Shown here: piece by piece, positions 417 to 64,000 of the stretch | Layout of the letters: each line of letters starts with the position of its first letter | Numbering within the stretch: the first letter of the stretch is position 1 | Assembly: GCA_963930775.1 (NCBI GenBank) | Contig: OZ005695.1 | Span: 8,060,001 to 8,124,000 of the forward strand | Reading direction: 5' to 3' | Length of the DNA stretch: 64,000 nucleotides | Origin: Cliona cf. orientalis | Lineage: Eukaryota > Porifera > Demospongiae > Clionaida > Clionaidae | Notes under the pieces: model-generated | The model's input: only the letters and a program-made list of their open reading frames with translations | Database searches by the model: none | What the model was told of the DNA's origin: nothing | Made by a program: the position numbers and the translations under genes

Positions 417-2993
417 ATGGGACGGCCTGGATACGAGGCTAGGTTGCTGCAAATTTTAGCTCTTCTCCCTCTGACAAGAATAGCTCCAGTCAGCTGTCAA
501 CACGCCGACGACTACGAGCTGACACTACTAGCAGCCATTCAGAGCAATGAAAGTGGATTAGAGGTTCGCACTCTTTTCTAATTCTCTGGACATTATGGAT
601 TTAGTACAGCAAGCTAACGGCCTGATCATGACTTGCAATTGGAGCCTCAGATGGACTTATATTTTATTCCCAATCACAATCTGTCTTCAGAGTGTGGTGA
701 TCAATACTTTCGATGCCAAGAACTTTTGGTTTTCTGTGCACAAAATGATAGTGGAGAATTGAGTATCATCTTTGTACCACTGGAGAATGGTATGCTCCTT
801 TTAAGCTACTGGCATAATGCAGTGATGATGGAGAGAAGCATTTTTATTGTAAACAGTTCCAACTGTAGCCCCACCGTATTTTATAACATTGACGGCAAAG
901 TTTATACAGTTTGCATTAACTCATATCAACTTTATGTTGCTGTATATGAGGTACAGCTAAATTTGAGTGGCTCGGTGACCGAGTTAGAAGGTGCAGAATT
1001 TGTTGAACCGTTTGTAACAACTATCAATTTATCATCCTCACAGCCACTGTCAAACTTCATTATTGATGTAGATCACATGATCTTCTTTGCTGTTGGAAAT
1101 ATATATCATCACTGTTATGGATATTTTTGACAAGACAGAGACAAAGCATTATCCAGAATTACCCGAATGTTATCAAATTCACAAACTCATTTCTACTACT
1201 GGTTCTGGGAACCAAAATTTACTGGTAGCCTATTGCACGGACGGATACATTGCCTTTGATCCAGTGTTTGGAGACTGGACTGGCATACAACATTTCTCAA
1301 GTAATGGGGTACCATACCTATGTCCTAACAACAGCTACAGAGTTACCCATTTCATTAATGATAATGTTTTACAGTTTTCAGTAAAAGGTGCGTTAATAAA
1401 CATAATCAACAATGTAAACATCAACAGTGGTATCTGCTTTGAATCTCAAAACAGAACATATTTTGCCTACTCAGATCAACAACACTACAATGTCAATGTG
1501 TACGATTTCACCACACAAAAACACTACCCTGTATCTCCTTATGACTGCTCAGCTACACCACACAAAAACTGCCCCCAATTACTCTTCTTAGAAAATCAGT
1601 ATCTCGTTATCCGTGATGCAATCTGCAATCTTTATCTTGATATCATCATGAATTTCAGTTTGCTATTCAACACCTCTAGTGGTATTGCTGACATTCTTGC
1701 CATTCTCCATAGCAACGCTCATAGTACTTCAGAAAAAACATCTTCTCCAGGTACTACATCCACATTAATCAGTTTCATATCTCCAGATCACACTAATAGT
1801 GTTATTTTCATGCCACTTATTACTAGCACTGCAGATATTGGTCCTGGTATTAGCCAATCTGAGAGCCCTACTGCCATAATATTAGTCAGTTCTCTAGAGT
1901 ATACATATCCACCCATACCAAGAGTATATAAAAGGAGGGAGAGAGAGTATCCTACTTCCTATTGCTGTGTGCAAACACCCTTTGCCAAGTACAGAGGTCA
2001 AGTTACACTATCTTACACACAAACTCACCACAAACGTCTGGCATATAACCGCGCGCTTGTACTTGCACACATGATAGTGGTCTAGTGAGCAATGATAAGG
2101 ACTAAAATACTGTGGGTGGTCATGCACCTGTACTGGTTTGTGGTAACCTTTATGTAGTGCTGACCATATTGACCTCTGTACTTGGCAAAGGGTGTTTGCA
2201 CACAGCAATAGGAAGTAGGACACTCTCTCTCCCTCCTCTTATATACTCTTGCCCATACTTCATCACCTTTAAGCACTGCTTTTTCTACACCCATTTCCAC
2301 AGTAAACGTTGCTACTGTGACCACATACACAGATGCTCCTACATCGATTACTGTACACTACAAATCTGTGGGGATAATTTTGACAGCTGTTATTGGACTG
2401 ATTGTCATCATCATCATTTTAGTGACAGTTGCTGTTGGTTTTTCTATCCAGCACTGCCGGAGAAAAAAATGGTAGGTCTCATGTCATTGATTGAAAATGA
2501 GTTCCTGCAGGCATGCATGCTTTGAATTTTTATTAATTTGCAGGTGCAGGACTGCATCATTTTATAGAACTCCAAGTACGTTTCTTAGTGATTGTCTCAT
2601 ATTTAGAGTAACTTATTACGGGACCACCTGTTAGCTATATAATATAGATAGCAGCAGTAGCTAGGCTTTAGACCCTAGCTTTATAGCTATTGTCATATCG
2701 TGAATAATTAATATCACTGAATTTCAGGCTGCTTATCAGGCTATAATATTATATTAATGAATACACTAATTAAGGAAGACCAGACTTTTCATGCTTTTGA
2801 CTATACAGGATTGAGATTCTACACCAACCGGAGTCCTACTGTGTCACTACTCACTGCCAGCAGTGCTTAAGCAGAGGAGGACTCGGAGGACTCGGAGGAA
2901 GAGGGTGAAAGTCACAAGATGATGGGAACCCACTCATGGCACTCAAGGGAATCACGTTTTGACAAGGAATGGAGATGGACAACTACAGTGTGA
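417..2993 (+). pseudogene. A1: broken A-type surface receptor
   Basis: Copy of the A-type gene (compare intact A3). It starts with the same signal peptide (MGRPGYEARLLQ...). Readable exons are 417-2471, 2544-2575 and 2809-2993 with the usual GT..AG borders. It is disabled repeatedly: TAA in place of GAA at 579-581, a second TAA at 615-617, a 4-base insertion near 1,100 that shifts the frame, a 333-bp inverted-repeat element inside the stalk at 1919-2251, and TAA in place of CAA at 2868-2870 in the tail exon. The ectodomain is otherwise clearly homologous, with the GVPYLCPNNSYRVTHFIN and GICFESQNRTYFAYSD motifs. I infer loss of function, since these cannot all be assembly errors. Confidence 0.88.
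1919..2251. mobile_element. MITE-like element with ~80-bp terminal inverted repeats, inside A1
   Basis: The left arm starts CAAGAGTATATAAAAGG and the right end is its near-perfect complement (..TATATACTCTTG). The arms pair over about 80 bp (1919-~2000 and ~2169-2251). The 7-bp direct repeat CCCATAC flanks it at 1912-1918 and 2252-2258, while intact paralogs have a single uninterrupted CATAC there. No transposase is visible, so it is non-autonomous. Confidence 0.85.
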
Positions 2994-4612
2994 CTAATAT
3001 AATCAACATGCAGTGCCATCCATGGCAGTCATTGCATACAATCATTCCTATTGTGCATCATTATAATAATTATTGTTAACTTAGCCCACCTTGGCCAATG
3101 GGATCCACAGTATTTAGCATCAGCTTGGGGCCATCGATTGGGTTGCTATTAATACTGTAGATCCCTTGTCCTCGGTGTCTATTATTTTAAATTAGTGCTA
3201 TAAATCAAAATGTGCATATTATGATACGGTCGGGTATGATATTACATGGTTTCCATCAATTATTCACATGGAAACTACGTACACTATGAGAGTATACAAG
3301 GTTATCCTAACATTAACTAGTTTAATAAGTGATTGAAAACGTCACCCTCATGGGACTTTTTATTGAATGAGTTTGCATGCAGTGGCATTTCTGTGATTCA
3401 ATGTTCCACGGGAAGTTCCATACAGTAACTTGAATATATTATTATAGGCAAATGCTAACATTCATTTATTGTGTTTTAAATATTAGCTATTCTTATTTTG
3501 AATATATTTTTATAGCTAGATTTGCATTTAAACTTCCACCATGCAGTCATAATGTTCTCCTCCAACTAGACAGCTAGCCTCGGTGTAGCTAACACTGTGG
3601 ATGGACAAACTTGTGGGTAAGTAGCTATCAGCATACATGCATGATATTATACAAAAAGTGGTCGTACAACATAGCTACTATGATTCATCACTGCTTGTCA
3701 ACTTTGAGCTTTCTCAGGGAGCCAGTGCAAAGTCTAAATGCATGGTAAAAAAATTGTTTTCTACTGCCATTAATGTTCATATATATAGCTTTTCTACAGC
3801 ATTGTAGACTCAGATGATATCGTGGCACCACCACCATCGTGTTCATCAGTGCTCAGTGAAATTGAAGGTGTCAGTGGAAAAAAGGGATAAGTCATATTTT
3901 AGTAATAAGTATGGACATACATTGTTGCCTACAGGTATCTCTGTTTTGGAGCAATAAAACTTTTTAAAAACTGTTTTAGACACAGAGCATTGCACACACA
4001 GTATTCTAGTGTTGTAAGTAATAGGATTTTCAATCAGTTTTCGAATGTTTGGAAATGGTCGTCACTTTCATAAACGCACTGCGGGTAAAATTTACGCTAT
4101 TTGAAAAGTTTGCGTTCAAATAATTATTGCGGATCACCAAAAAAGATTGCGTGTGCGTGCTTAAAACATTGCGTGCGAATAGTAGATGAGTTGACCTTAG
4201 TAGCAGCATGCAAAACTCCATTTTATCAAAAACATGACTTATCCCCTTTTTCCACTGACCCCTTCAATTATTCATGAACGTATTATTATAATATTATGCA
4301 TGCTCTGATAATACTGAGTCACATGCATGATGGTTATTGTTGTTATACATCTACAGAATCTAATCAGTGCTCCACAGACTGAAGCTTTTGAAGTGACATA
4401 TAAAGTAGCAACTGGAAAAAGTTAATTATCAATTTTTTAATGCAGATTTGACGACCTAGCTGATTTTAATAATCCGAGATATTATTATTATGGCTATGTT
4501 GATATAATGTAGCATTAGTCCCGTTCCTAGACGCACGCAAGAATGTGACTTGGGAATGAGACCGAGAATACGCGGCCTGCGAATGCTCAAAGGATAATTG
4601 AATATGTAGAAC
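2994..4612. other. A1-A2 spacer with receptor relic and PPPSY exon
   Basis: No intact gene. At about 3,226-3,350 there is a relic of ectodomain coding sequence that matches A5 near 18,170-18,250 (TATTCACATGGAAACTAC ... GAGAGTATAC.AGGTTATCC). At about 3,800-3,870 an exon-like block reads IVDSDDIVAPPPS in one frame, preceded by TTTCTACAG. About 350 bp around 3,880-4,260, with inverted ends (AAAAAGGGATAAGTCAT / ATGACTTATCCCCTTTTT), has no counterpart in the A2-A3 spacer and looks like an insertion. Confidence 0.55.
3882..4254. mobile_element. Possible small inverted-repeat insertion
   Basis: The ends GGGATAAGTCAT (near 3,886) and ATGACTTATCCCC (near 4,235) are inverted copies, continued by TCAGTGGAAAAA / TTTTTCCACTGA just outside. 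The equivalent place in the A2-A3 spacer (near 7,800) lacks this DNA and continues straight into ATTATTCATGAACG. The exact borders are uncertain. Confidence 0.5.
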
Positions 4613-4622: not shown

Positions 4623-4687
4623 AAAATTCTGTTTACTCAGTCTCCCACTGACTAATCAACTGACAATTATTGGAGGGTGGTTACGAC

Positions 4688-6940
4688 ATGGGACGGCCTG
4701 GATACGAGGCTAGACTACTGCAACTTTTAACTCTTCTCCCTCTGATAAGAATAGCTCCAGTCTTCTGTCAACACGCGGAAGACTACGAGCTCACACTACT
4801 AGCAGCCATTCGGAGCAATGAAAGTGGATTAGAGGTTCGCACTCTTTTCTAATTCTCTGGACATTATCCGGGATTTAGTAGAGCAAGCGATCATGACTTG
4901 CAATTGGATCCTCAGATTGCTTTATATTTTGTCCCCAATCACAGTCTGTCTTCAGAGTGTGGTGATCAATACTTTCGATGCCAAAAACTTTTGGTTGTCT
5001 GTGCACAAAATGATAGTGGAGAATTGAGTATCATCTTTGTACCACTGGAGAATGGTGTACTCCTTTTAAGTTATTGGTATAATTCAATGATGATAGAGAG
5101 AAGCATTTTTATTGTAAATAGCTCCAACTGTAGCCCCACTGTGTTCTACAACATTGATGGCAAAGTTTACACAGTTTGCATTAACTCGTATCATCTTTGT
5201 GTTGCTGTATATGAGGTACAGCTAAATTTGAGTGGCTCAGTGACCAAGTTAGAAGGTGCAGAATTTGTTGAACCGTTGGTAACAAGTATCAATTTGTCAT
5301 CCTCACAGCCACTGTCAAACTTCGTTAATGTAGATCACATGATCTTCTTTGCTGTTGGAAATATCATCATTGTTATGGATATTTTTGACAAGACAGAGAC
5401 AAAGCATTATCCAGAATTACCCGAATGTTATCAAATTCATAAACTCTTTTCTACTACTGGTTCTGGGAACCAAAAGTTACTGGTAGCCAATTGCACGGAC
5501 GGATACATTGCCTTTGATCCAGTGTTTGGAGACTGGACTGGCATACAACATTTCTCAAGTAATGGGGTACCATACCTATGTCCTAACAACAGCTATAGAG
5601 TTACCCATTTCATTAATGATACTGTACGCTTTTCAGTAAGAGGTGTGTTAATAAGCACAATCAACAATGTAAATATCAGCAGTGGTATCTGCTTTGAATC
5701 TCAAAACAGAACATATTTTGCCTACTCAGATCAACAACACTACAATATCAATGTGTATGATTTCACCACACAAAATCACTACCCTGTATCTCCTTATGAC
5801 TGCTCAGCTACACCACACAAGGACTGCCCCCAATTACTCTTCTTAGAAAATCAGTATCTTGTTATCCGTGATGCCATCTGCAATCGTATTCTTGATACTA
5901 CCATGAATTTCAGTTTGCTAATCAACACCTCTAGTGGTGTTGCTGACATTCTTGCCATTCTCCATAGCAACGCTCGTACTTCAGAAAAAACAACATCTCC
6001 AGGTATTACATCCACATTAATCAGTTTCAGATCTCCAGATCACACAATTATAGTGTTATTTTCATGCCACTTATTACTAGTAGTACTGCAGACGTTGGTC
6101 CTGGTATTAGCCACTCTGAGAGCCCTACTGTCATAACATTAGTCAGTTCTCTAGAGTACATATCCACCCATACTTTAGCACCTTTAAGCACTGCTTTTGC
6201 TACACCCATTTCCACAGTAAACAATGCTACTGTGACCACATACACAGATGCTCCTACATCGATTACTGTCCGTAATAACTCTGTGGGGATAATTTTGCCA
6301 GCTGTCATTGGACTGATTGTCATCATCATCATTTTAGTGACAGTTGCTGTTGGTTTTTCTATCCGGCGCTGCCGGAGAAAAAAATGGTAGGTCTCATGAT
6401 TAAAAATGAGCTCCTGCAGGCATGTTTTGAATTCTTATTAATTTGCAGGTGCAACACTGCATCATTTCATAGAACTCCAAGTACGTTTAATAGTGATTAT
6501 CTCAGTGTTTAGAGTATTATAATAGTATCACGGGACCACCTGTTAGCTATAGATAGAGCAGCAATAGCTAGGCTTTAGACCTTATAGCTATAGGTTTATA
6601 GCTATAGCCATATATTGTGGTAGGAGTAAATCATTAATATCACGTACTGAATATCAGGCTGCTCATCAGGCTATAATTATTATATTAGTATATTATACTG
6701 CATACACTAATTAATGCAAATCAGACCTTCATAACTTTTCATGCTTTTGACTGTTATACAGGATCGATATTCTATACTAACCGGAGTCCTACAATGTCAC
6801 TACTCACTGCCAGCATTGCTCAAGCAGAGGAGGACTCGGAGGAGGAAGAGGGTGAAAGTCACAAGATGATGGGAACCCACTCATGGCACTCAAGGGAATC
6901 ACATTTTGACAAGGAATGGAGATGGACAACTACAGTGTGA
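4688..6940 (+). pseudogene. A2: A-type surface receptor with one stop and one frameshift
   Basis: Exons 4688-6386, 6449-6480 and 6762-6940 match A3 exon for exon, and the joined tail reads cleanly to TGA at 6938-6940. Two lesions break it: TAA at 4850-4852 where A3 has GAA (about residue 55), the same codon that is broken in A1, and two extra bases near 6,041-6,053 in the stalk (CACACAATTATAG against CACACTAATAG). The ectodomain between them is open. The TM (VGIILPAVIGLIVIIIILV) and the tail with YTN and the terminal TTTV are preserved. It is recently inactivated or an allele; two sequencing errors are possible but the shared stop argues against that. Confidence 0.82.
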
Positions 6941-8230: not shown

Positions 8231-10565
8231 ATGGGACGGCCTGGATACGAGGCTAGACTACTGCAACTTTTAACTCTTCTCCCTCTGATCATGATAAGAA
8301 TAGCTCCAGTCTTCTGTCAACACGCGGAAGACTGTGAGCTCACACTACTAGCAGCCATTCGGAGCAATGAAAGTGGATTAGAGGTTCGCACTCTTTTTGA
8401 ATTCTCTGGACATTATCCTGGATTTAGTAGAGCAAGCGATCATGACTTGCAATTGGATCCTCAGATTGCTTTATATTTTGTCCCCAATCACAGTCTGTCT
8501 TCAGAGTGTGGTGATCAATACTTTCGATGCCAAAAACTTTTGGTTGTCTGTGCACAAAACGATAGTGGAGAATTGAGTATCATCTTTGTACCACTGGAGA
8601 ATGGTGTACTCCTTTTAAGTTATTGGTACAATTCAACGATGATAGAGAGAAGCATTTTTATTGTAAATAGCTCCAACTGTAGCCCCACTGTGTTCTACAA
8701 CATTGATGGCAAAGTTTATACAGTTTGCATTAACTCGTATCATCTTTGTGTTGCTGTATATGAGGTACAGCTAAATTTGAGTGGCTCAGTGACCAAGTTA
8801 GAAGGTGCAGAATTTGTTGAACCGTTGATAACAAGTATCAATTTGTCATCCTCACAGCCACTGTCAAACTTCATTAATGTAGATCACATGATCTTCTTTG
8901 CTGTTGGAAATATCATCATTGTTATGGATATTTTTGACAAGACAGAGACAAAGCATTATCCAGAATTACCCGAATGTTATCAAATTCACAAACTCTTTTC
9001 TACTACTGGTTCTGGGAACCAAAAGCTACTGGTAGCCAATTGCACGGACGGATACATTACCTTTGATCCAGTGTTGGGAGACTGGACTGGCATACAACAT
9101 TTCTCAAGTGATGGGGTACCATACATATGTCCTAACAACAGCTATAGAGTTACCCATTTCATTAATGATACTGTACGCTTTTCAGTAAGAGGTGTGTTAA
9201 TAAGCACAATCAACAATGTAAACATCAGCAGTGGTATCTGCTTTGAATCTCAAAACAGAACATATTTTGCCTACTCAGATCAACAACACTACAATATCAA
9301 TGTGTATGATTTCACCACACAAAATCACTACCCTGTATCTCCTTATGACTGCTCAGCTACACCACACAAAAACTGCCCCCAATTACTCTTCTTAGAAAAT
9401 CAGTATCTTGTTATCCGTGATGCCATCTGCAATCGTATTCTTGATGCCACCATGAATTTCAGTTTGCTAATCAACATCTCTAGTGGTATTGCTGACATTC
9501 TTGCCATTCTCCATAGCAACACTCATAGTACTTCAGCAAAAACATCTTCTCCAGGTACTACATCCACATTAATCAGTTTCAGATCTCCAGATCACACTAA
9601 TAGTGTTATTTTCACGCCACTTATTACTAGCAGTGCAGACGTTGATCCTGGTATTAGCCAATCTGAGAGCCCTACTGCCATAACATTAGTCAGTTCTCTA
9701 GAGTACATATCCACGCATACTTCATCACCTTTAAGTACCGCTTTTGCTACACCCATTTCCACATTAAACAATGCTACTGTGACCACATACACAGATGCTC
9801 CTACATCAATTATTGTACATAATAACTCATCACCTTTAAGCACTGCTTTTGCTACACCCATTTCCACAGTAAACAATGCTACTGTGACCACATACACAGA
9901 TGTCCCTACATCGATTACTGTCCGTAATAACTCTGTGGGGATAATTTTGACAGCTGTCATTGGACTGATTGTCATCATCATCATTTTAGTGACAGTTGCT
10001 ATTGGTTTTTCTATCCGGCGCTGCCGGAGAAAGAAGCGGTAGGTCTCGTGATTAAAAATGAGCTCCTGCATGCTTTGAATTTTTATTCTTTTGCAGGTGC
10101 AGTGCTGCATCATTTTATAGAACTCCAAGTACGTTCCTTAGTGATTATCTCAGTGTATATATCATATTACTTTTAATATTACGGGACCACTTATTAGCTA
10201 TAGACGGAGCCGCAATACGTAGCTAGGCTTAAGACCCTAGCTTTATATAAGAGTAAAATTAATTGAATACCAGGCTGCTCATCAAGCTATAGTAATTATA
10301 ACACTACATACACTAATTAAGGCAGACCAGACCTTTCATAACTTTTCATGTTTTTGACTATACAGGATTAAGATACTATACTAACCGGAGTCCTCCTGTG
10401 TCACTACTCACTGGCGCTGGCAGTGCTCGAGCAGAGGAGGAGGAGGAGGAGGAGGAGGAGGAGGAAGAGGGTGAAAGTTACGAGATGATGGCCTCGGAAA
10501 CCCACTTATGGCACTCAAGGGAATCACATTTTGATAAGGGATGGAGATGGACAACTACAGTATGA
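8231..10565 (+). CDS. A3: intact A-type single-pass surface receptor (679 aa)
   Basis: Exons 8231-10038, 10097-10128 and 10366-10565 join in frame to 679 residues. I start at the ATG at 8231 because the frame upstream offers only TTG. Residues 1-30 are a signal peptide (hydrophobic core LLQLLTLLPLIMI). The ectodomain has the Cys pair C93/C100 (CGDQYFRC), FVPLENG at 119-125, many N-x-S/T sites, then a Ser/Thr-rich stalk in which a 105-bp unit is present twice (9722-9826, 9827-9931). The TM is about residues 569-595, followed by RRCRRKKR. The tail has YYTNRSP (YxN, Grb2-type), a run of Glu, ESYEMM (YxxM, PI3K-type) and ends in TTTV (PDZ class I type). This is the only unbroken copy among A1-A4. 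Ligand and function are unknown; signalling is inferred from the tail. Confidence 0.88.
9722..9931 (+). repeat. Tandem 105-bp stalk repeat in A3
   Basis: Two in-frame copies of a 35-codon unit (SSPLSTAFATPIST..NNA) lie between the propeller-like region and the TM. A2 and A4 have one copy, so stalk length varies between paralogs. The composition is Ser/Thr/Pro-rich and suits an O-glycosylated spacer. Confidence 0.85.
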
Positions 10566-11204: not shown

Positions 11205-13152
11205 ATGAGGTTTTTGCTGTTTTGTTGTTGTTACCTTTCCCTGACCCTGTGCTATGCTTCCCAAGATATAAATACTGATCATGAGAATCATAGGCAAAAT
11301 CATGGTAAGTTCATAAGATTATGAAAATCTAGACCTATATCATGCATGTATACTTTTAGGGCATGTTTATAGGTTGTACAAACTTACATGTAAGTACAGA
11401 GTCAACATACACGTAAAATTAGACAAAATGTGGCATGTGATACAGTCGGGTATGATATTATTCTGAAATTTTTGATATTACAGTATCAGGTACTTGCCAG
11501 AATTTGGATATCGTCATGGTACAAAATTTGACACAGACCGGCATGATTCTGCGAATGTATCAGGCATCAACCATGAACTTTTCTACATCAATTCCAGTAC
11601 CAAACCAATATCTACCCCCAGAATGTGGTGACAATAATCATCGTTGTGGCATCCTTCATTTTGAACATAGCGAAATATATTATTATATTATACCCTCAAT
11701 TCGTGGCTTTGTAAAATTCTCCCATCACATTGGTGATGCACACCAAGACCCACAGTATTCGTTTATCAATGTCACAGAAGAGTGCAATCCTGTACGAGCA
11801 TTCCTCACTGGTCCAGAAGGAAGCTATCGGATAGTCATAGCATGTATGGATCTACAAACCCGTCCACATGGAATTATTTATTACCTGCAGTACTACTTTT
11901 CACCTGCACCAGACACTAAAGGGCGAACACGAGGTGTGATCAAAAAGAATACTTCATTTCAGGTACGATCTGAGCCTATCTACAACCCCAATACTGTGTC
12001 TAAAGTTATCTACGTGAGTGGACAAAAGAGATGTGAGGAAAAACGCAACCTTTACTTCATCGATGATGCATACGTTCTGCAGTACTCTCCAGACGCATTT
12101 GATCCAGAATACATTTTATCAAGTACCCCATTACAAAACTGTGTAGGCTATCAAGATATTGAGCATTATGGAAATGACAGTTTACTCATTCGATGTTTCA
12201 ATAACCAGACAGTCATGTACGACAGCTGTGCCAGTCGCTTCAATTACTTACACTCTGACTGCATACCATACCCGTGCTCAAATTGGGATACCATCGTTTA
12301 CCGTGATGGAAGGAAACTAACACTTCAAAAACGTCAACACAGTAACAATACCCAGCTACGAACCCTATCCCTTCCAAAATTTGACGAGTTGACATATGGA
12401 ACATGCATACATGCTTACGATGGCACCCCAATTTTCATTGGAATCGCAAATGATGGGGAAATGTTCATAGCACGTTTTGGTATCAATAATATCACAGCTA
12501 TGGAGGCATTAAGCTACAAGAAGGCATTCATAGGCAATGGATCAATCTCGTGGCACCCACCCATAGTGTTTTCGGATAACAGACAAGTATTTGGAGTGTA
12601 CAATGTAGATAATAAAGACTTCCAGGTAGTTAATGTCACAGCTGAGTGTAGTTTTGTTCGCCATATAGGAATATCTGATGATTTTGCACCAGATCTCGTT
12701 GCCTTCACTGCTCGAAATGGTAGCTACGAGTGTGGCTGTCAAGTACCAGTATCGAATACTCATAGATCATCATCCATTAAATGGCCATTATTTGGAATTC
12801 CAGCAATTGGTGCACTAATTATATTATTGTCACTTGGAATATTAGCCGCTATTTTAATGGTCTATTTAAGGTAAGTTGGTAAAACATAATACTAATAGTG
12901 CTGAATATTCATCCATGTAGACTTCCTTTTATTGCAGGAAGAAGCCTCAAACGGAGAGCTGAATCATTGTGCTCAAGCTTTTATCCGGAGAGTAATTGCA
13001 CTGATAAGAATGATATGATTTGCATCTCGGGCTCTGACCATCATCTTCGTCATCAACGAGTGCAAGGATTTCCTGTGACCATGCAAGAGCCAGTCGAAGT
13101 TACAGAGACTCACAACGTCAACATGCCCAATAATGATCATAGTAGAGCATAG
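11205..13152 (+). CDS. B1: B-type surface receptor; tail depends on a shifted splice acceptor
   Basis: Exon 1 (11205-11304) encodes the signal peptide MRFLLFCCCYLSLTLCYASQ and ends in phase 1. Exon 2 (11484-12870) gives GTCQNL, the Cys pair CGDNNHRC, YIIPSIRG, IPYPCSNWD, about 10 N-glycosylation sites and a TM (GALIILLSLGILAAILMVY). Exon 3 encodes the tail to TAG at 13150-13152. Compared with B2, exon 3 has one extra C (GAAGAAGCCTC against GAAGAAGCTC). Splicing at the AG that matches B2 (exon from 12938) gives a stop after about eight residues. An AG four bases on (exon from 12942) restores the full tail and gives 565 aa. So B1 is either tail-truncated or uses the shifted acceptor. The ectodomain is intact. 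Confidence 0.8.
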
Positions 13153-16472: not shown

Positions 16473-16805
16473 ATGATGGGGTCTTGTAGCTTGCGGTTGC
16501 TGCTCGTGGCTCTTCTCTCTTCGGTCAGAACCTACAGCCAACAACGCACAGAGGACCACGGTTTGACGTTTCTAGTGGCCATTAAGAGCAATGAAAGTGG
16601 ATTGGAGATAAATACTCACTTGAGGCTGGAAAACCAAGGCAATGAGGACATTGAGAGATATAGATTGCACCCCAAATCCCAGGTGCATTTTATTCCAGGT
16701 CATAACTTGTCTTCAGCGTGTGGTGATCAATTTCCGATGCCAAGAACTACTTAGTCTAGTTAAAACTCCATTATTCCAAGGCACAAATTCGAACCTGAAG
16801 ATTAA

Positions 16806-17820: not shown

Positions 17821-17826
17821 TTAATA

Positions 17827-21990: not shown

Positions 21991-22007
21991 CGTTGCGGTT
22001 AATAGTT

Positions 22008-51100: not shown

Positions 51101-52105
51101 AAAATTTGAGAGATGTGAAAGTTCGAAGGGGCTTATATGGTGAGGTGATAAACATGATAGCCGTATGTCCGTCACGCTCATTGCATTTCTCACTTCACAC
51201 AGCATTATAAAATCTCCTCGTCCGCTATTAACTAAGCACAATAAACGCAGTGCTCCGAAAAAGTTAATCACCGAAATTGGATTGCATTGCCGTGGGAAAT
51301 CAACTGTCCTAGTCTGCTTGTGAGAAAGTGCTGTACCATTGTAAAAGAATTCCACGACTCCAAGAGCTGATTTGGTAAGAGGAACATAGAAGATCAAGCG
51401 AGTGTGATTATCATCGGTGGTGGACATCAGATACGTCAGATTTCGACATCTTGACGGATGGAAGGCACACGAATCTGGATAGGAGAAATTTTCGAACCTT
51501 ATTGAGATGGGGTGTGGGTTGGCACGGGATGCGTACGTGATCGAAGCTGTCCCAGTGCTGTCGTTGCCAGCAATGAAAAGATGCTCATCATATTCAACTG
51601 GAATAAGAAGTGACATTAAATACTGATAATAGCAAATTAAGCTCCACTCCACCCCCTCCCACAATAATAAGATACAGTGCTGAACAAGTGCTTGCTGGCT
51701 AATAAAAGGGCACCGACCAATAATAATTTAATTTATTTAGCTAGGGCCTACGCACTGGTGTACAATTCGGAGCCAGGTTAAGTTTCGAAAATCTTAGGAT
51801 TTCTTGTCACAAAGGATGTCAACTTGGCAGCACTAACTTATAAAGCAGCACGCAAAACTAGCATCTATCAGACTCTGTGGCTCTGATCTCACGCATTCAC
51901 TATGGATAGGGGGCGTAGGCTACAACAATTGTCGAGCCTCGGACTTGTCTTTCATGTTCATCACCACCGTGCACCACATATATACATTGATACAAAACGT
52001 CATACCTTGTGCTGTATCGTCCAGTCCTGCGGTGTCCAGGCAGACTACCAGAGTGGCGAAGGTGGTAAGGCAACACGTACACAGAAATTTGGTACTTTTC
52101 GTCAT
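48129..52105 (-). CDS. D1: D-type surface receptor with long Ser/Gln/Pro-rich tail (996 aa)
   Basis: Minus-strand exons 52105-52006, 51597-50226, 49718-49671 and 49599-48129 join to 996 residues. Exon 1 holds the signal peptide MTKSTKFLCTCCLTTFATLV. The ectodomain has CAFHPSRC, FYVPLTKS in place of FVPLENG, and SFGRCFELGG as the GxCFE motif. TM about 468-489 (LLVITMVATPLLVYYVYL). A 16-codon exon (QHKHKRGVYAAVQPI) links to a 490-residue tail with DRDNYGVLG, PPPPPNYSAVH (PPxY), DRNAYTAVG and many Ser, Gln, Asn and Pro. Likely disordered and suited to adaptor binding (inference). All internal borders keep phase 2. This is the most diverged D member in its ectodomain. Confidence 0.86.
49719..50113. 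other. D1 intron 2
   Basis: Intron between the TM exon and the 48-bp linker exon (50225-49719). The coding frame appears to continue past the donor for a while (to 50,114), but the splice-consistent donor at 50225 keeps the tail in frame. Nothing else recognised. Confidence 0.5.
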
Positions 52106-52311: not shown

Positions 52312-55300
52312 TTAGACTACAGTTTCGAACTTGTATGGAAACTTCTGCTTTGACGTTTGTAGCTCACTTGCTTCTGCCCTTTCTTTTTCCTTGCTTATGA
52401 ATTCCATAGCATTAAATTTCGCTCCGTCTAGAGGAGGCAAAGTCTTGTTTGTCATCTTCTGCCCCAGTGGACTTTCTGTCAGTTTTTCACCAGTCAATAC
52501 GCTTCCAATTTTGGATTCCTGCACATGCATAGGTATTCCTAGAAGTGCTTCATTATTTAATGGGCTGTCATCTCCATTTTCAACAACCGTGTCAGTGTTG
52601 GTTATAATACCTTCAATGCTGCTTTTCTTAATGGACTCAGAATACTTTGCATCAGATGACTCAAGATTTATGCTGGTATCGGCTGACGTTCGAGCAACAG
52701 TTTTTATCGTGCGGCCAACAAAAGTACACTTAATTATTGGTGCAACTTCCTCTTGTGAGAATAGAGTGTCATCTAGATCTATAGGTTTGCCAGTTTCTGT
52801 ACTCATTTCATTTTCTTCTGTATAAACTTCCTGTGAAGATGAAGACGTGTTGAGATCAGATGCTGGACCCTTTGAGGATAACTCGGATTGTCCACTTGTG
52901 CTTTTAGTGCTGTAGCTAGTCAGACTCCCTTCTAATTCTGCCATGGAGCCTAGGTGAACTGCAGTGTGTTTTTCATCTCCAAAATCATGATCAATAAAAC
53001 TCGTAGGGTCTGGTAACTGATTGTGATCATTGCTTAAATCCTCTCCTTTGTCTCTGCTAGTCTCAAGATGGTATCCACTTTCTCTTGTTTCAAATTGTTC
53101 TTTTATATCTTCTTGATCCCCTAATTTCTTGCCTACTTCTTCAAAATCACTGTGTTCTTTGTCTACATTAATTTCTCTAATCTCATGATGGTCTCCTATA
53201 TCTTTTTGATCCATCGTACACTCTAGTTCCTTGGCTGGTACTGGTGCTTCAAATTTGTGCTTGCTATCATCTCCACTTAATTCTTCAGTCTCAAGATGGT
53301 CTCGTACATCTTCTTCATCCACTACATACTTCAATTCCTTGGCCGATACTTTACAGTCACCATCACCTTTGTCTCCCTTTGTTTCTCTACTTTCAAGATG
53401 GTCTTCTATACCTTCTTGATCCATTGCATGCTCAAATTTCTTAGATATTCTTTCAAAATCGTCCTTATTAGTCTGGGAAAAGTTCTCTTCAACTTCATTG
53501 ATTTCCTCAGGAGGCTCTGATGACTCTTCAGCTGCATCACAGGGTACAGAAGAAAGGTCTTCAGTATGATCTTCAGTGGCTTCCGTTTCTGGTACTACAA
53601 CAGCCGGTAAGATTGGAGACACAGGCATATCCATCGGATGGATCACATCAGGATCTGAATTCAAAGGAAGCGTGTCTTCTTTACCAACCTCCTGCTTCTC
53701 ATGGTCGAAAGGATTAGCTGAATCTGAGGGTTTATGCTGTTGATGCTGATCAATATCATGACTATGTATTACCTCAGTAGGATTACCAGATTCTAATGCA
53801 CTGCTATCGATCTCACTTGGCAATCCCGAAGAATGATTTATCACTTGCAATGATATTTCGCCACTATTGCCTTTTCCCTCCATGTCACCGGTACCATTCA
53901 CTTTTTCTTCGCCTTCAGTGTCACTATTATTGTCCGCATTGTCCTGATCCGGTAATCCTGAAGAATGATTTATCACTTGCAATGATATTTTGCCACTATT
54001 GCCTTCTCCCCCCATGTCACCGGTACCATTAACTTTTTCTTCACCTTCAATGTCACTATTATTGTCCGCATTGTCCTGATCCGGTAATGAGAGCAGTTCA
54101 CCTGATGCTTGCTCTTCTCTTCCTTTCAGTATCACTGGTAGCTCACTCGTTGCCTCGTCAGGTAGTGCTGATTTGTCACTTTTATCACCCTCTCTCCCTG
54201 TTTTGTTGGCATCATCACTTACACTGTCTCCTTCCTCAAATTCTCCTTCTCCGTTACTATTGAGCTGTGTGCATATAGCATTTGATGGAAGTGGTGGCTC
54301 CTCAGTTTCTCTGTATTCTGTAGAATTGGCACTTCTCTCCAGCTCACTTTCTCTATCTTTCATGTCATCACTAATGCAGCCTCTGTCCTCAGATTTCTGA
54401 TCAGCTGATAGGGATAGTTCACTAGCTATAGATGTACCTTGTTTTTCTCCGTTATCATTGAGCGGAGGGTTTAGTGACCCACTGGTTTCTATATGTTCTG
54501 TGGACTCAGCTCTCCTATCTTCTCCCTCACCTTCTCTATCTATGGTGCCATCACTGATATGGCCTCCATTCTCGAACTCCTTATCAACCGTCGGAGATAT
54601 TAATTCACTAGGATCTGATGTACCATTAATGACAGTTTGCTCCTCTACTCTTACAGCACTGAACTGTGAATTTAATTGAGATGGTGGCTCCTCGCTTTCT
54701 GTGATGTGTTGATCAGTTGATGGTGCTGGTGAGCTTTCAGGTTGAGAGTTTCCTTTCAGGCACTCTGGACCACTGCTTGAAGCATGGGCATTAATGATCA
54801 CCTCTCCTTGATCATCGGAAGGTGGGTTGATTTCATCTTCTAGACTAGCAGCTGTATTGAGATTGTTATCTTTGCTGCCGGCTTTATCGGGTTCTATTAA
54901 CTTTTGTGTCTCTGAAATACTCAAGTCAGTTACCGTCTCTTCTTCTAGATCTTGTGGATATGGTGTGTCAACATTGTGATCAACTGACAGGGAATCGGAT
55001 GTTGTTTGATTTTCAAACACTATCACAGTGGCTGGCGTTTCCTCACAACCAGTACCATGCTCATGATCATCGAAGACAAAACTCCTACGATAAAGTTATA
55101 ATATACAACTAGCAACACGTAATATTAAATTTATTATATCGAGCTTACCCTGAGTATACAGGATTTGAATATGAAGAATCATTATCTGCTTCTGCTCCCA
55201 ACTCAGCTGCTACAGTATTGATTGGCTGAGATTCTGGAACTGAGTAGTTTTCTATCACAACATCTTGAGGTTGTTTTGCGAACGTTACATCCGGTAATTT

Positions 55301-56976
55301 ATACTTGCCACTGGTCCTACTCCCTGAGCAGCTGTTGAAATTAAATAATGTCATGAATCATGATGATATCAAATTCATGTACTGATACGTTCAAGGTCAA
55401 ACTTTGGAACTTACCATCTCTTGATAACAATCACGAATAATATTATGATTGCGATAACAATAATCATGACTAGTATCGAGAGAATGGCCACAGGCACAAT
55501 CACCTCTAAGGAAACACCCCTTTTGGTGCCGACGTGGGTTTGATTAGGCTCATCAGATGAATCTGTTGGGTCTACGTACATTGTGGTTGGTGATACACTA
55601 TGGATAGGGATAGTTGGGAGGTCAGACATTAAGGTAACGAGTTGGAGAGGGGCACTCCCTAGGTCTATGATCGAGCGATTAAGAAGTACGTCAAAAACCA
55701 TCACATTTCTCCTCAGCTCATTACGAACCACTATGTATCTGTTGCCATAAACGAGAGGAAGCTCACAGTTCGACTCTGAGCACCCCTGTGTAGCTGGTAT
55801 GAGCCACAAGCTTTCTGATGTCATATTGAATAGATAAGCGCCAACAGTTCTGTCTGTGTATACAAGAAGGTGGTCACCTCTCGCTGACTCAAAGCACGTA
55901 CCAGAATGGAAATCCATGCTGATCGTTGGTGACTCAAATATCCTGATCACAGGGTTGCCATCTTTGCTTATCTTGTAGCTGAATTCCATTTGCATTTGTG
56001 ATAAGTGGATAGTGTATTGGGCAGTCGGTGAGCAGGGATAAGGAATATTTGATGCTTCTTCAATTCTAGTAATGCTGTGTAGGTTGAGGTTGTATGTAAT
56101 GACATTTCGATTGCGACAGTAAACAAGAAGGTTTTGCTTATCTTGTGGGCTTATGAGCAATTGATCAACTGATGAGCAATAAGTGGGGAGTGCAAATGTG
56201 AAAGGACGGTTTGAACTTGAGCTTGGAAAGAGTTCATAAAGGGTGTTCTGTACTAGAAAAACTAAGCTCTCGTTTATAGCAACAATGTTAGAAATACTCG
56301 AGAAGCCAGCTCCGTTTTCAACAATTGATACGTTTACATTCACTTGACGACAAGGTTGAAGTGTAGACTGAGTTACTGCTGTTGAATTGAGTATTAGCTC
56401 ACACACATAATATCGATGGTCTGTTCCAATGCAGGGGATGAAATAATCAGGGCCGATCTTATGAACACCAAGGGAAGGCCCACAGCTATGATTGCCATTG
56501 ACACTATCGAATAACAATCTATGCTGTGCAACCAGGCTTAGTTGGTTGATGGATGTGCCATTGTATGCCAGTTCAAGAATTTGAACTCCGTCCTCGAGTG
56601 GAACCAATAGGATGTGCACGCTTGTAAGGCTGCTAGTATCAGTAGACTCGATTAGCAGTTCCCTGCATCTTGATGGGTGTGAACCACAGGCAGACGATAC
56701 AGAATAGCCATCCAGGGAAAGAGAGAGCATATTAGTTGGTTGTGAAGCTGCCAACAGTCTTTCATATCCGTTTTCATCATTTCCAATGGCAATGAGATAG
56801 TTATTGCTAGAGAGTAGTTGCCCTATGTTACACAAATTCTTAGCTTAGACAGTGAAACAGATAGAGAGCCCCACCCATCTAAGCTAAGTACACAGAAGTT
56901 ATTAAGACCAACCTTGTTCACATGTAGAGTGTCTCCAGCTATGCAGAACACACAACAGAAGTATCAGTCTTGCCAT
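52312..56976 (-). CDS. D2: D-type surface receptor with ~985-residue acidic tail (1475 aa)
   Basis: Exons 56976-56913, 56822-55415, 55331-55149 and 55084-52312 join to 1,475 residues. Signal peptide MARLILLLCVLHSW. Ectodomain: CGSHPSRC, LLVPLEDG, IPYPCSPTA, SGTCFE. TM about 460-488 (VAILSILVMIIVIAIIILFV). Exon 3 (61 codons) has IENYSVPE and SSYSNPVYSG, an NPxY motif of the PTB/endocytosis type. Exon 4 encodes about 920 mainly Glu, Asp, Ser residues with no predicted fold, two tandem ~44-residue units (SSGLPDQDNADNNSD..) and several looser repeats of the DHLETE/EDIxDHxE kind, then a basic C-terminus (KQKFPYKFETVV). Ectodomain plus signal have the same coding length as in D1 (1,472 nt). The tail is the outlier of the window. 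Confidence 0.88.
53820..54083 (-). repeat. Tandem 132-bp repeat in the D2 tail
   Basis: Two in-frame copies of a 44-codon unit at about 53,820-53,951 and 53,952-54,083, differing at a few bases (for example NNSDIEGEEK against NNSDTEGEEK). Both keep the VNGTGDM and LQVINHSSGLP segments. Low divergence indicates a recent duplication. Confidence 0.85.
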
Positions 56977-57885: not shown

Positions 57886-60052
57886 CTACCTGTGTGGCAC
57901 CACTGGTTGAGTAGCATTACTCCTTGCTTCATTAAAATTAGTTTCTGCAATAGGTTGTACAATTATGTTGGACTCTTGTCCTTGAGAATCACAGAGAGGG
58001 CTTGCAGACGAATGTCTACTACTCCCACTCAGTGGTGATCCTGATGAAGGTGTGGCTGCATCTGGAGACAGTATTTCTGAGCCCGACGTGTTTCTACTTG
58101 AGTGAAGTTGGCTCATGCTATTAGATGTACATGAGGCAGAATCTCTCTCCCTTCATAATAATATTAATAATGAACAGTATCATAGTAGCTATAGTGATGA
58201 ATCAATACAACTCACCTGCATAGATTGGTTATTGCAATGCCTGCACCAGTTGGCAAAACACTATGTTCATATCTACCAGTTGATGACTGACTGTCAATTG
58301 GGGGAGGTGGTGTGCTTTTTCGTCTCCTGTGTACAAAATGGAGGATTCAATTGGATATTCATTACCAATAAGTTTAAGGGATTTACCTGTAGCACTGAAT
58401 ACATCCAATGGTACCACCTACACTTAAACCAATAATAATTATTACTACTATTACAGCAATGGCAATAAGGGGTCCAATATCTTCTTCTGGATCATTTACA
58501 TGTGTAGGTGAGGTATTCATATCATATGTTACAGCAGTTGACATTACTGATGTTGGGACTGAAGTTGCAATTGAGCTCGAGTGTGGTGTTGGGGATGACA
58601 CCATCACTGCTGAACTAGCTATAGGAGTGCGAGTAGGTTCAATTTCTATTACAGTTGAAAGATTGGAGACCACAGTAGCAAGTTGAAGTAACGCAATATT
58701 ATGATCTTGCTGTGTAATTATGGGTGGATGGATGTTTCGTATGTCAAGATCAAAGACAGAAGAAGTTTGATGGTCGAGACTGTGAGTGACAATGTATCGT
58801 TCATTAATTATCAGTGGTCTAGCATACTGGTTGCTTATCGAGATATTATACACTGGTGGTGCATGCATTGACGAATTGATGAGATGCAAATTATTACTCC
58901 AGTCAGTATATAAGAATAGGTGATGATCTCTATACTCAATGCATTCTCCAAACTTAAACTGCCTGTTTGTAGCTCGTAGTTTGGAAAATGATCTTCCGTC
59001 CACTCTGTAATTGTAGCGTATGTCAGCATGTTTGTTGTTAGTCAGGTTAACAGATACCGAAAAGTTTGTAGTAACTGAGCAAGGAAAGTAGAGATGGTTG
59101 TTAAACTGAGAAGCATGGGCAGAATCAAAGTTATATTCTACCATAGTATTATTTGCACAATAAATCAAGAGTTTCGATTCGCTAATCTTTTGTAAACGCA
59201 ATAAAATCTGGCAGTTTGCACTGTTAGAAAACTGAATAGGTTCCACATTTGCACCATCTATCACATCGTCTTGGTATATATGATTGTTGGAAGCAAACAA
59301 TAAATGCAACCCAATGCGGCTTGGCAAGTAACGAACAACATCTGAAATGTGTTCCACAACTATGTCGGTGCTGGGGTTTAAGAGTAGGTGACACTCTTTA
59401 GATGATAAGAAAACTGTGGAGTTTTGCTGATTTATTTGTGTTAATTTACATCGACAGACTCCACTTGAACTGGCGCACAGTGTATACAAAGATTCAGTTT
59501 TGTACACTCCAAGTGATGCGCACATGTGTGGGCATGGATTGCCAAAACGGTACAGTATATGTGGCTGAATCACAGTAATCCGGGTTTCGTTTTCCGTGCC
59601 AATAATATCTTGAGCAGCAGATCCATTGTACATAAACGTCACGTTAAGTACACCATTTTCTAGTGGTACGAAGACGTGATGTAGGCTTGTTGCATCACTA
59701 CTGTACGAAGATTCCACTGTCAACTCGCGACTTCTTGACGATTGCTCGGAGAATGCCGATGATACGGCATGATCTGGACCAATGGGGACTGTCACGGCGA
59801 CCTGAGACGGAGCCGAGATCTTGGGCGTAATCCACATTTTACTGATTCCATTTGAATCGCTACCAATTACCACAAGATGTTCATTTCTGAGATGTTCAGT
59901 CAGAGAATTCCCTGTGACAATAATATTATGGAACGTATAGATTATTCGTCTAGCCCCTCCCCCCGGCCCCTCGCCGAACTTGAATACTAACCTGCTTGAC
60001 AGACAAAAGCAGTTATTGATAAGAAGACTTCAATCCACTTCATCAATGTCAT
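57886..60052 (-). CDS. D3: D-type surface receptor lacking the conserved Cys pair (653 aa)
   Basis: Exons 60052-59992, 59911-58387, 58326-58216 and 58150-57886 join to 653 residues. Signal peptide MTLMKWIEVFLSITAFVC. The motif that reads CGSHPSRCREL in D2 reads AFSEQSSRSREL here: both Cys are replaced, while FVPLENG right after it is conserved. LYFPCS and FGECIE mark later blade motifs. A Ser/Thr stalk follows, then the TM about 499-522 (IAIAVIVVIIIIGLSVGG). The tail of about 130 residues has RRRKSTPPPPID, GRYEHSVLP and a Ser-rich segment, ending VVPHR. The stop (TAG) overlaps a possible donor CAG|GTAGCT, so a longer isoform cannot be excluded. Confidence 0.85.
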
Positions 60053-60517: not shown

Positions 60518-62878
60518 TTAGTGATCTGTATCACCTCTGCTACTGTTCTCTTGCATGAGGTGGGTTCTTAATGGATACAAACAGTCTGTCTTCTCCTCTG
60601 GAACTGCCACTTGTGAGTCAACACTGGAACTTTCTTTAATGCGCTGCCGTACTATCTTTGGAGCACCACTGCTGGACTGTGAGCGCTGAGAGTCTGTATC
60701 CAAGGATTCATCTCTGTCTTTATCAGCAGTAACTAGATCTATAGTATTGAATTTCACAGATTCAGTACTTGAAGATACATCAGATTTCGAGAACTGGGTG
60801 TTGCTTGTACCCGAGGCGTCTTTTTCAATCTTGGTGTGAACGTCAGCTTCTACTGTTTGCTTGCTAGCTATTTCAGTATCTTCAATATGAAAATGTTCTG
60901 CTTTTATGTCTGATTCTGGAACTACATCAGGCTCCACGTTTTCTGTATCATCTAGATTTCCATGATTAGTAGCAGCAGAGGCTGGTATCACAGACGGTTG
61001 AATAGTTTCACTGCATACAATGATCAAAGTTATGATTATTGCATGGATGATCAATAATTATAGCTAGCTACCTGGTCACACTTACTCTTCAGAATTCACA
61101 GCAGACGCCGCTTCATTTGGTGACGTCTCATTTAATTCTGCTGGCTCACTGCCTCCCATGTGAACTGCTGACCCTTGCACTAGTGCGGGAGAGTAGTTCC
61201 TATATGCAGCGTGGAATTTAATCAATTTGAAAATTCATAGTGATGATTCAAATTGAGAGAAGTTGGGGACTTACCTCTGTCTTTTGAGCCTGATACTAAT
61301 AATAACTACTAACAACAACACAATTATAGCTGTAATGATGATAATGCTTATCACCACAATCGCAGCAACAATCCCCAGGCTCAAAGATTGGTTACTATCT
61401 TCCATGAATTCAGATGGTGAAGTATTCATAGTGTCCATACTTGTGGTGATAGGTTCTGTGGGAACATGTACTATTTGTATGTCATGAATCAGAGAGAGCA
61501 ACAAAAATTGTGTTTCCCGGAGTACAATATTGGCTCGGCCTTGCCTGATATCATGCACAGTAACCCTATTCTCTTCTCTATTGCGCACGACTAAGTATTG
61601 ATCATTGTACACCAAAATGAATTCACATTCATCCTCTGTTCCACAGCAACATGTGTTTGGCAAAAGAGTGAAATTCCTTGATGTTGCATTGAATAAATAT
61701 ACACCCATACTTCGATCCGTGTATGCAAATAGGTTATGGCTGCCATTATTAAAGCATATTCCTGAATGAAAGTCACTGCTCATAGTTGGAGATGGGGAGA
61801 TCTGAACTGTATCACTGCCATTGTTTCGGAGTTTATAACTGAGCTCCATCTGATTTTGGTTCAAATGAATAATAAATTCCGCTGATGGTGAACAAGGATA
61901 CTGCACATTTTCTAATCCCCCAAAGTTTACAATTTGATCGACATCAGTACTATACACGATAGAAGTACGATCACGGCAGTACAGAAGTAATTCACCATCA
62001 CCTTTCGGACTTAAGAGCAGTTGATCAATCTGAGAACAAAGACGAGAGAAATCATCCACATAATATACATTATTAGTAATAGGGAAGAGGTTATAGAGGC
62101 CATTCTGAAGTAGAAATAAGAGGTGCTGTTGTGGTACATACGTGTCATCTGACAGAACTATGTTAGAGAGACTTGTAAATCCAGCTGTACCGATATCCAG
62201 CATTTGCTGGCAGCCATGTATAGAAGATCGTGCAATTGCTGTCATATTGATGGTGAGTGTACAGATGTATAAACGCTCTCTAGTGATGCATGGCACGTAG
62301 TTTGTGGTACCAATTTGGTATGCATTCAGTGAAGAGCAATTATTACCATTGCCACTGATACCACTAAACATGAGTGAGTGTTGAGAAGTGATATTTAGTT
62401 CATTCTCTGTCCCATCGTGATAAAATTCTAGTAGTTGCAATCCGTTTTCCAGGGGGATCATGATCAAGTGCTTGGTAATCAGGTCACTTAGCCTGGTAGA
62501 CTGCACCGTCAACTCTCGACACCTTGATGGATGTGTTCCACAAGCGGAAGAAATGGAGTGGCCATTCAGGGTGACAGTTGTGACTGAGCTAGCAAGCTTT
62601 GAGGCCACGGTGAGAATGCCATCTCCATCCTCACTATTTCCAACGGCAAGAAGATGTTCGTCACTAACTGTGGTTGTCCCCTTAGCTGCATGTAGTGAGT
62701 ATATAGTGTGTGTGCAAGCATGGATTATATTATTCCATGGTGCAGGCTTGAGCAGCCCCACCCACTTTGTAGGCACAGCAAGTATTGTATGATCATGCAC
62801 AAAATTGATTGTACCTTTCCAGCTACAAGCGAAGCAGCCAAAAAGCATAAAAATCAACACTTCTAGATCTCCTCTCAT
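60518..62878 (-). CDS. D4: intact D-type surface receptor (693 aa)
   Basis: Exons 62878-62815, 62685-61275, 61199-61086 and 61010-60518 join to 693 residues. Signal peptide MRGDLEVLIFMLFGCFACS; an in-frame ATG 63 bp upstream (62941) is less likely because it would bury the signal. The ectodomain has CGTHPSRC, IPLENG, VQYPCSPSA and SGICFNNGS, closely like D2. TM about 463-485 (IVAAIVVISIIIITAIIVLL). The tail of about 205 residues is acidic and Ser/Thr-rich, with RNYSPALVQG and a C-terminus rich in Ser and Asp (SSRGDTDH). Intron 1 (62814-62686) is 129 bp, in frame and without stops, so retention would still give an open protein. Confidence 0.87.
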
Positions 62879-63381: not shown

Positions 63382-64000
63382 ATGAAGCTGATAGGTGCTC
63401 TGCTACTATTGTTTATAGCTGTCACTTGTTTTGGCTCAGCTACTTCAGCTCGTAGCTATACCAGATCTAGTGCTACAAATTCTCAGCAGTTTATCTACTC
63501 AGAATGTAGTGAAGAGTTTCTGCTGGTCATTGATGAAGATAGTGAAGGAGTGGCTCTCTCTGTACTAGCTGCAGTTGGCAATAATGAAGAGAGAGTACTG
63601 CATCTTACTGGTCAAACACTTTCATCGGACACTCAATGTGGTGAAGATGGCTTCAGGTGCAAGAATTTCCTGGTCATAAAGAATACCATTCTCAATTCTA
63701 CACTTGTGTTCGTTCCACTACACAATGCACTGCTCCTTACACGTTTTGTACTGAATGATACTGGAATCATACTTGAGGAGTACCACTTGATAAATCTGAC
63801 TAGATTTAATTGTACTCCTGTTGCTTCCTTTGAAGTCCTCCACAGTGTGTATACAGTTTGCTTAAATGTAGAAGAATCTTACCTAGCATTATTTGAAGTC
63901 CGGCTTAACTCGGAATCTCTGACAAGAGCTTCTATTATTGGACCACTTGCTCGAAACTATTTCAGCATTCAAAGCTCTAACCAAATCTCCGAGTTCAAAT
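63382..64000 (+). CDS. E: start of another family member, cut by the window end
   Basis: ATG at 63382 opens a frame that stays open to 64000 (206 codons). Signal peptide MKLIGALLLLFIAVTCFGSA. Family signature CGEDGFRC (C-x6-C) followed by FVPLHNALLL, then LNLTRFNCTPVASF, matching the ANSSNCTPTVF-type strand in A genes and VYTVCLN. The N-terminal region before the Cys pair is longer than in A or D, with two extra Cys-containing stretches. It is intact as far as it goes; no intron after the signal peptide is visible, unlike B, C and D. Stalk, TM and tail lie beyond the window. Confidence 0.85.
   Translation, partial: MKLIGALLLLFIAVTCFGSATSARSYTRSSATNSQQFIYSECSEEFLLVIDEDSEGVALSVLAAVGNNEERVLHLTGQTLSSDTQCGEDGFRCKNFLVIKNTILNSTLVFVPLHNALLLTRFVLNDTGIILEEYHLINLTRFNCTPVASFEVLHSVYTVCLNVEESYLALFEVRLNSESLTRASIIGPLARNYFSIQSSNQISEFK

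Follow-up and report, generated by a model that had tools for sequence, protein, structure and literature searches.

A clustered family of predicted beta-propeller receptors in the sponge Cliona cf. orientalis, with recombination ahead of the transmembrane helix

Introduction

Sponges tell self from non-self, and to our knowledge the receptors by which they do so are poorly known. A candidate receptor family is described here from a 64,000-nucleotide stretch of the genome of Cliona cf. orientalis (assembly GCA_963930775.1, contig OZ005695.1, here contig C7, positions 8060001-8124000; GC content 41%), referred to below as the window. The closest described systems differ in the domains they use. 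The Alr ectodomains of cnidarians are immunoglobulin (Ig)-like. The fungal HET-d and HET-e proteins are NLRs that act inside the cell and whose WD40 blades are highly repetitive. Sema/plexin and other metazoan propeller receptors carry an extracellular propeller on a single-pass receptor, and sponge aggregation factors are secreted and proteoglycan-like, with Calx-beta and Wreath domains.

In the Podocoryna allorecognition complex, 22 putative ALRs have been placed on one chromosome and others elsewhere (PMC13119343). At the fuhc locus of Botryllus, the fester and FcoR receptors are clustered, vary in gene content and bear tails with differing signalling motifs (PMC12065747). HET-d and HET-e are members of a multigene family that is involved in self/non-self recognition (PMC12222747, PMC1805685). 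In sponges themselves, aggregation factors are candidates for self-recognition, and aggregation-factor-mediated adhesion genes were reported not to be significantly enriched in a graft transcriptome of Amphimedon (PMC5450542). Finally, Symbiodiniaceae sequences have been recorded in a sample of C. cf. orientalis (PMC12639293).

Extent of the Cluster

Long stop-to-stop open reading frames (ORFs) with a C-terminal hydrophobic stretch occur on both strands of the window. The window belongs to one tandem array, ~287 kb in length, that would encode lineage-expanded type I single-pass receptors, each predicted to be built from a signal peptide, a propeller ectodomain, a Ser/Thr-rich stalk, a transmembrane (TM) helix and a tail carried in separate exons. 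A profile scan of the window returned 18 segments, comprising all 16 members or recognisable copies named in a first-pass annotation of the same DNA (A1-A6, B1-B2, C1-C3, D1-D4 and E) and two short fragments. The ectodomain exon is open in 11 members (A3, A5, B1, B2, C2, C3, D1, D2, D3, D4 and E, the last of which runs past the window edge to contig position 8125001). The pseudogenes that the annotation had reported are also present: A6 is interrupted by an inserted fragment, and stops, frame breaks or truncation disrupt A1, A2, A4 and C1. That annotation had the family filling the window; the cluster is real, but its extent was understated, since it runs ~222 kb further left and spans ~7.838 to 8.125 Mb of the contig.

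Member names from A1 to E carry window positions, and seven-digit names (e.g., 8057341 and 7978156) are positions on contig C7. Across C7 7860001-8124000, the A/D and B/C profiles returned 67 segments, 33 of them unsplit and spanning 80% or more of the profile and 34 partial or split. The first of these rows, segment 7868540, is an F-type member, and nine F-type loci, some only fragments, lie at C7 7837963-7886067. Because the 67 segments include one F-type member and nine F-type loci were found, ~75 distinct segments are counted overall; these are segment counts rather than gene counts, as one broken locus can yield several rows (e.g., rows 34-36 and 55-57). Among the best candidates scored in the sponge's own genome, all matches of A5 (60/60) and D2 (11/11) fell on C7, as did 22 of the 25 matches of C3, the remaining three lying on contig C1 near 14.89 Mb. 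Clustering of the family at the C7 locus is near-exclusive. The small outlying locus, with its three B/C-type matches, occupies contig C1 14891591-14896750.

Homology and Sequence Hallmarks

Pairwise BLASTP comparisons relate A to D (best E-value 8e-17) and B to C (6e-126), and give weak matches between A/D and B/C (best E-value ~2e-4). For profile-profile comparison, ectodomains were trimmed to their first 400 residues, arranged in groups A, B/C, D and F, and set against a reversed-sequence control. The resulting E-values were 4e-28 for A-D, 7e-7 for A-B/C, 1.5e-5 for D-B/C, 3e-12 for A-F, 6e-15 for D-F and 2e-10 for B/C-F. All six of the six group pairs (1.5e-5 to 4.2e-28) were well clear of the reversed controls (0.04-0.41), and E scores 2.6e-56 against the A/D profile. 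These comparisons support the placement of A, B/C, D and F, together with E by its profile match, in one homologous receptor superfamily, much as the annotation had treated the subfamilies.

In an alignment of 12 sequences from the window, the invariant residues are C98, C123, C218, C237, C264, C304 and P70; nearly invariant residues are L, G, S, F and Y, and neither an acid nor a histidine is conserved. Members of A/D/E share ten conserved cysteine columns, five of them filled in 31/31 sequences and the others in 28/29, 28/29, 29/30, 28/29 and 28/30. Several hallmarks listed in the annotation proved to be real, namely the C-x5/6-C pair, the strand that follows it, the single TM helix and the N-glycosylation sites, of which there are 8-19 sequons per exon in the ten open exons counted (E left out). 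Its PYPC and GxCFE motifs are present but not universal, A members having Y(I/L)CP and B/C members GxC(I/L).

Predicted Fold

The hint of a propeller fold in the annotation is supported by predicted models from two subfamilies. The D2 model (window 55597-56823) is a beta-propeller of 33 strands and the C2 model (38935-40170) a beta-propeller of 30 strands, and structure matches to propellers span the full ectodomain length for both. Both models are all-beta, with four-stranded blades arranged as a ring along the entire ectodomain. There is good support for the prediction that the ectodomain is a disulphide-rich, glycosylated beta-propeller of ~400 amino acids and 7-8 blades.

No named domain family had been recognised by eye, and searches agreed. 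None of 20 ORFs (0/20) exceeded the Pfam cut-off and none of 13 alignment members the curated cut-offs; three ectodomains scanned against PHROGs had no match at E<0.1, and a PDB sequence search with two profiles gave 0 matches at E<=5. With D2 alone, the PDB search returned two matches at E 0.1, to hydroxynitrile lyase. The sub-threshold Pfam names ASFV_P17, RIFIN, Stevor, Bac_thur_toxin and ODV-E18 were judged to be chance, several of them falling on hydrophobic stretches. Searches of the open-access literature, not all of them aimed at the family, turned up no description of one like it, which is weak evidence of absence; this cell-surface family is apparently undescribed so far.

It is conceivable that these proteins are a diverged branch of known propeller receptors, of the Sema/plexin/MET, integrin alpha, olfactomedin or LDL-receptor YWTD type. 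Those families are likewise single-pass or surface receptors, and the predicted fold belongs to the same class. Nevertheless, such a branch appears very unlikely: no Pfam model of any of these families, nor of Ig, was listed at E<=1 for the 20 ORFs and 13 members, neither PDB profile found a sequence match at E<=5, and Ig, Sema, integrin and LDL-receptor entries were absent among the structure matches listed (the best 50 of either VIA list, and Foldseek), which does not exclude a likeness.

Another conceivable reading is that of membrane-anchored propeller enzymes of the lactonase or dehydrogenase type. Weak sub-threshold Pfam matches include the propeller enzymes or relatives SGL, SdiA-regulated and Cytochrom_D1, and NirF is the top VIA structure match for both the D2 and C2 models. 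The Pfam matches (E 0.013-0.12), however, fall far below the curated cut-offs, the invariant residues are cysteines and a proline with no conserved acid or histidine among them, and the tails are long, which together make an enzyme extremely improbable.

Exon Structure, Cytoplasmic Tails and Tail Exchange

All splice sites reported here are predictions from DNA. The signal peptide lies on the ectodomain exon in A3 and A5, and a scan placed it on a separate exon with a strong phase-1 donor in B1, B2, C2 and C3; the scan returned nothing for D1-D4, although in D2 and D4 such exons can be read by eye, and C1 was outside it. The ectodomain exon closes with a phase-2 donor immediately behind the TM helix in nine of nine members tested, as well as in D1 and many copies outside the window. 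A5 is an exception, with the TM helix on its own following exon. An exon structure with phase 1 before the ectodomain and phase 2 after the TM helix is predicted to be common to the superfamily, with A3 and A5 as exceptions.

The predicted A3 protein has 679 amino acids. Its tail spans two short predicted exons that include a run of Glu residues and the string YEMM and end in TTTV, and these exons are read as coding because indels across copies are codon multiples. Some copies lack the YEMM tyrosine. A 43-amino-acid reading of the A tail was dropped, as an alignment of DNA from seven copies suggested the two-exon tail. The C-termini TTTV of A3 and ETVV of the presumed D2 tail presumably resemble class I PDZ ligands. 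In the presumed D1 tail, two copies of the motif LDR(D/N)xYxx(L/V)GxS...ED(V/I)Q occur with a PPPNYSAV segment. Motif counts took in 11 long tail ORFs, leaving out the short A and B tails: against shuffles, immunoreceptor tyrosine-based inhibitory motif (ITIM) and YxxPhi strings numbered 3 vs 2.7 expected and 11 vs 11.9 expected, respectively, and PPxY, NPxY, YxN and PxxP showed no clear excess.

One exchange is found in 8057341 and 7951038. Both have 79-82% of propeller residues in common with the A5 clade, but over the final 60 residues they cluster with the 7900384/8036306 clade (80-88%). Over its first 1500 nucleotides, the DNA of 8057341 matches A5 or 7978156 at 73-97% identity, and afterwards at 43-48%. 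Compared with 8032515/7895979, its identity is ~45-73% before the switch, 81-86% across the stalk and TM helix, 64-67% in the next window of comparison past the TM helix and mostly 75-94% further downstream. The recombination join in 8057341 sits in the stalk immediately ahead of the TM helix. The propeller itself may be mosaic, since nucleotides 1001-1250 of 8057341 are nearly as close to the other clade (70-73% vs 76-80%). A second exchange concerns 8007975, a B/C-type member with a C3-like ectodomain (78%), which is followed by an ORF that is 77% identical over 131 amino acids to an ORF found 1.75 kb downstream from 7837963, an F-type member.

Only the 8057341/7951038 switch and the 8007975 tail-ORF match are used as exchanges, because the downstream DNA that was compared reaches beyond the tails. 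A "tail differs" flag for C2 vs 7998355 was discarded, 7998355 being broken upstream of its TM helix. The two exchanges retained support the annotation's claim of swappable tails. Its further claim, that tails diverge much more than ectodomains do, holds for comparisons between subfamilies, but within a clade the downstream DNA is mostly shared.

Evolution and Selection

A tree of 46 members shows that copies of one clade are scattered along the cluster among those of other clades. A second version of the A3-B1-C1 block, A6-B2-C2, lies at a spacing of 23.5-24.6 kb. Block duplications and many broken copies mark a birth-and-death mode of evolution, and stalk recombination joins the ectodomain of one clade to the TM helix and downstream DNA of another. 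The ratio of nonsynonymous to synonymous substitution rates (dN/dS) is 0.22-0.78 over the whole exon in all listed paralogue pairs (>70% identity, >300 aligned residues), which points to constraint on the fold and not to diversifying selection over the whole domain.

The broken copies, the block duplications and the lack of visible positive selection would also suit an ordinary adhesion protein whose copy number expanded neutrally, with the tail exchanges as incidental products of unequal crossing-over. This seems unlikely, as many copies retain open frames under purifying selection (judging from the same listed pairs), and the exchange in 8057341 and 7951038 keeps the frame open as it replaces the stalk, TM helix and downstream DNA.

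Proposed Function

It is somewhat probable that the family works as a clustered recognition-receptor system, diversified by duplication, loss and stalk recombination. The propeller face would bind extracellular ligands, possibly glycans of microbes or symbionts, or molecules on the surface of other sponge cells, and interchangeable tails could link binding to differing outputs, such as PDZ scaffolding through TTV- or TVV-type C-termini. It is tempting to go further and suggest a locus for sponge self/non-self or symbiont recognition, with a receptor class of a categorically different sort: the variable ectodomains would be disulphide-stabilised propellers rather than Ig domains, and recombination in the stalk would pass signalling tails from one specificity to another. 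This suggestion is put forward tentatively, as a possibility.

Several points weigh against a recognition function. Large clusters arise for feeding, adhesion and olfaction too. At the whole-exon level there is no sign of diversifying selection, all listed dN/dS values being <1; variability is not enriched outside strands or in loops (p=0.18, 25 A-like members); and tyrosine motifs are no commoner in the 11 long tail ORFs than in their shuffles. The exon joins are themselves predicted splice junctions. Confidence in the fold models is middling (predicted local distance difference test scores, pLDDT, 74 and 76), and the two models are not independent because their alignments share most sequences. 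Foldseek template-modelling scores are modest as well (TMq 0.21-0.48 among the matches listed). The likeness to immune or allorecognition clusters drawn in the annotation is accordingly mixed: the tandem array, birth and death and modular tails bear it out, but diversifying selection, loop enrichment and an excess of tyrosine motifs were not seen.

The main rival is that these are feeding or scavenging receptors on filtering cells, which bind food particles or dissolved polymers, with copy number reflecting diet and tails acting as endocytic adaptors. Large single-pass families with variable tails suit scavenger receptors as well, some tails contain YxxPhi strings, though at chance frequency, and dN/dS values <1 are in keeping with them too. 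Set against this, endocytic motifs are not enriched in the tails, and a role in signalling or scaffolding, rather than in simple endocytosis, is suggested by the exchange of tails, by their PDZ-like ends and by the long tails of low complexity. A feeding role is judged rather unlikely, and a recognition-receptor system is the reading preferred here.

Gene Models and Neighbouring Features

Coordinates of the family members in the window are collected in Table 1.

Table 1. Predicted exons, broken copies and fragments of the receptor family in the window.
Feature	Window position	Strand	Remarks
A1, broken copy	618..2525	+	ectodomain as two overlapping-frame pieces; TM region in ORF 2106-2525
A2, broken copy	4853..6387	+	in-frame stop before 4853; frame break ahead of TM
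A3 exon 1	8231..10038	+	signal peptide, propeller ectodomain, Ser/Thr stalk, TM
A3 exon 2	10097..10128	+	cytoplasmic tail start (predicted)
A3 exon 3	10366..10565	+	acidic tail ending ...GESYEMM...WRWTTTV, PDZ-ligand-like end; codon-multiple indels across copies
B1 signal-peptide exon	11205..11304	+	predicted, phase 1
B1 ectodomain and TM exon	11490..12870	+	
B1 tail exon	12938..13152	+	~71 aa
C1, broken copy	14333..15723	+	four pieces
Short family fragments	16566 and 17826		profile scan; not among the 16 named
A4, broken or partial copy	17996..19036	+	
A5 signal peptide, ectodomain and stalk exon	23888..25367	+	3' end is a predicted donor
A5 separate TM exon	25475..25595	+	predicted
A6, split copy	31551..33511	+	split by retroelement-like fragment at ~32082-32445
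B2 signal-peptide exon	34681..34780	+	predicted
B2 ectodomain and TM exon	35219..36605	+	
B2 tail exon	36676..36889	+	~71 aa
C2 signal-peptide exon	38087..38183	+	predicted
C2 ectodomain and TM exon	38936..40322	+	
C2 tail exon	40480..40699	+	predicted
C3 signal-peptide exon	41117..41228	+	predicted
C3 ectodomain and TM exon	42681..44109	+	
C3 tail exon	44183..44642	+	153 aa
D1 possible further tail exon	45502..46008	-	168 aa; inferred from position
D1 presumed tail exon	48129..49604	-	491 aa; two LDR(D/N)xY repeats; assigned to D1 by position
D1 ectodomain and TM exon	50226..51592	-	5' end approximate; phase-2 donor after TM at 50226
D2 presumed tail exons	52312..55331	-	62-aa reading from 55331, then acidic ~924-aa exon ending FETVV
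D2 ectodomain and TM exon	55415..56822	-	
D2 signal-peptide exon	56913..56976	-	read by eye, not returned by scan
D3 ectodomain and TM exon	58387..59909	-	5' end approximate
D4 presumed tail exon	60518..61057	-	
D4 ectodomain and TM exon	61275..62680	-	5' end approximate; likely signal-peptide exon begins at 62878
E signal peptide and ectodomain start	63382..64000	+	continues to contig 8125001; ORF opens at 63106

The cluster is flanked on the left by an ORF that we take to be similar to the first part of a myosin II heavy chain and on the right by one that is presumably gamma-glutamyltransferase-like. At the left edge, an ORF on the minus strand (contig 7833804-7835132) looks by eye like a repetitive, N-glycosylated beta-helix surface protein. 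To the right (contig 8127780-8136571) lie three small Cys-containing ORFs of 150-171 amino acids, apparently secreted and related by eye.

An apparent mobile element occupies window 16801-23819, with 183-nucleotide terminal inverted repeats (97% complementary) and inner inverted arms of 441 and 311 nucleotides (98-99%); near-identical copies of its ORFs are found at contig 7849393 and 7957222. An inverted repeat of 415 nucleotides (90% complementary) pairs window 22377-22791 with 23065-23479, 273 nucleotides apart. The fragment inside A6 (window 32082-32445) has a poly-A tail and a ~9-nucleotide duplicated target, and its ORF presumably resembles the end of a non-long-terminal-repeat reverse transcriptase. 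Finally, a tRNA-Ser (GGA) lies within the cluster on the minus strand (window 30591-30664).

Comparison with Known Systems

The Alr system of Hydractinia and Podocoryna, likewise in a non-bilaterian, resembles the sponge locus in being a cluster of duplicated surface proteins. The sponge family differs in its predicted propellers, with no Ig match in the Pfam scans, and is known here from the sequence of one haplotype. Fester and FcoR of Botryllus are also clustered receptor families with differing tails; their ectodomains, however, combine Ig and sushi domains and their ITIM and hemi-immunoreceptor tyrosine-based activation motif (hemITAM) signals are documented, whereas the sponge ectodomain is a predicted propeller and ITIM strings are not enriched. 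Because the organisation is alike but the domain type differs, the sponge family is not regarded as a member of either the Alr or the fester/FcoR family.

In HET-d and HET-e, propellers of the WD40 type also serve recognition within a multigene family. Unlike them, the sponge propellers would be extracellular, cysteine-rich and TM-anchored, with non-repetitive blades in the predicted models. Sema/plexin receptors differ in that the sponge family yields no profile match to them in Pfam or PDB. Sponge aggregation factors differ in that the sponge cluster encodes predicted TM propellers. Beside these systems, the cluster constitutes a concrete, mappable candidate receptor set, with an unusual predicted ectodomain fold and visible tail exchange, that lies open to tests of polymorphism, graft linkage and symbiont response.

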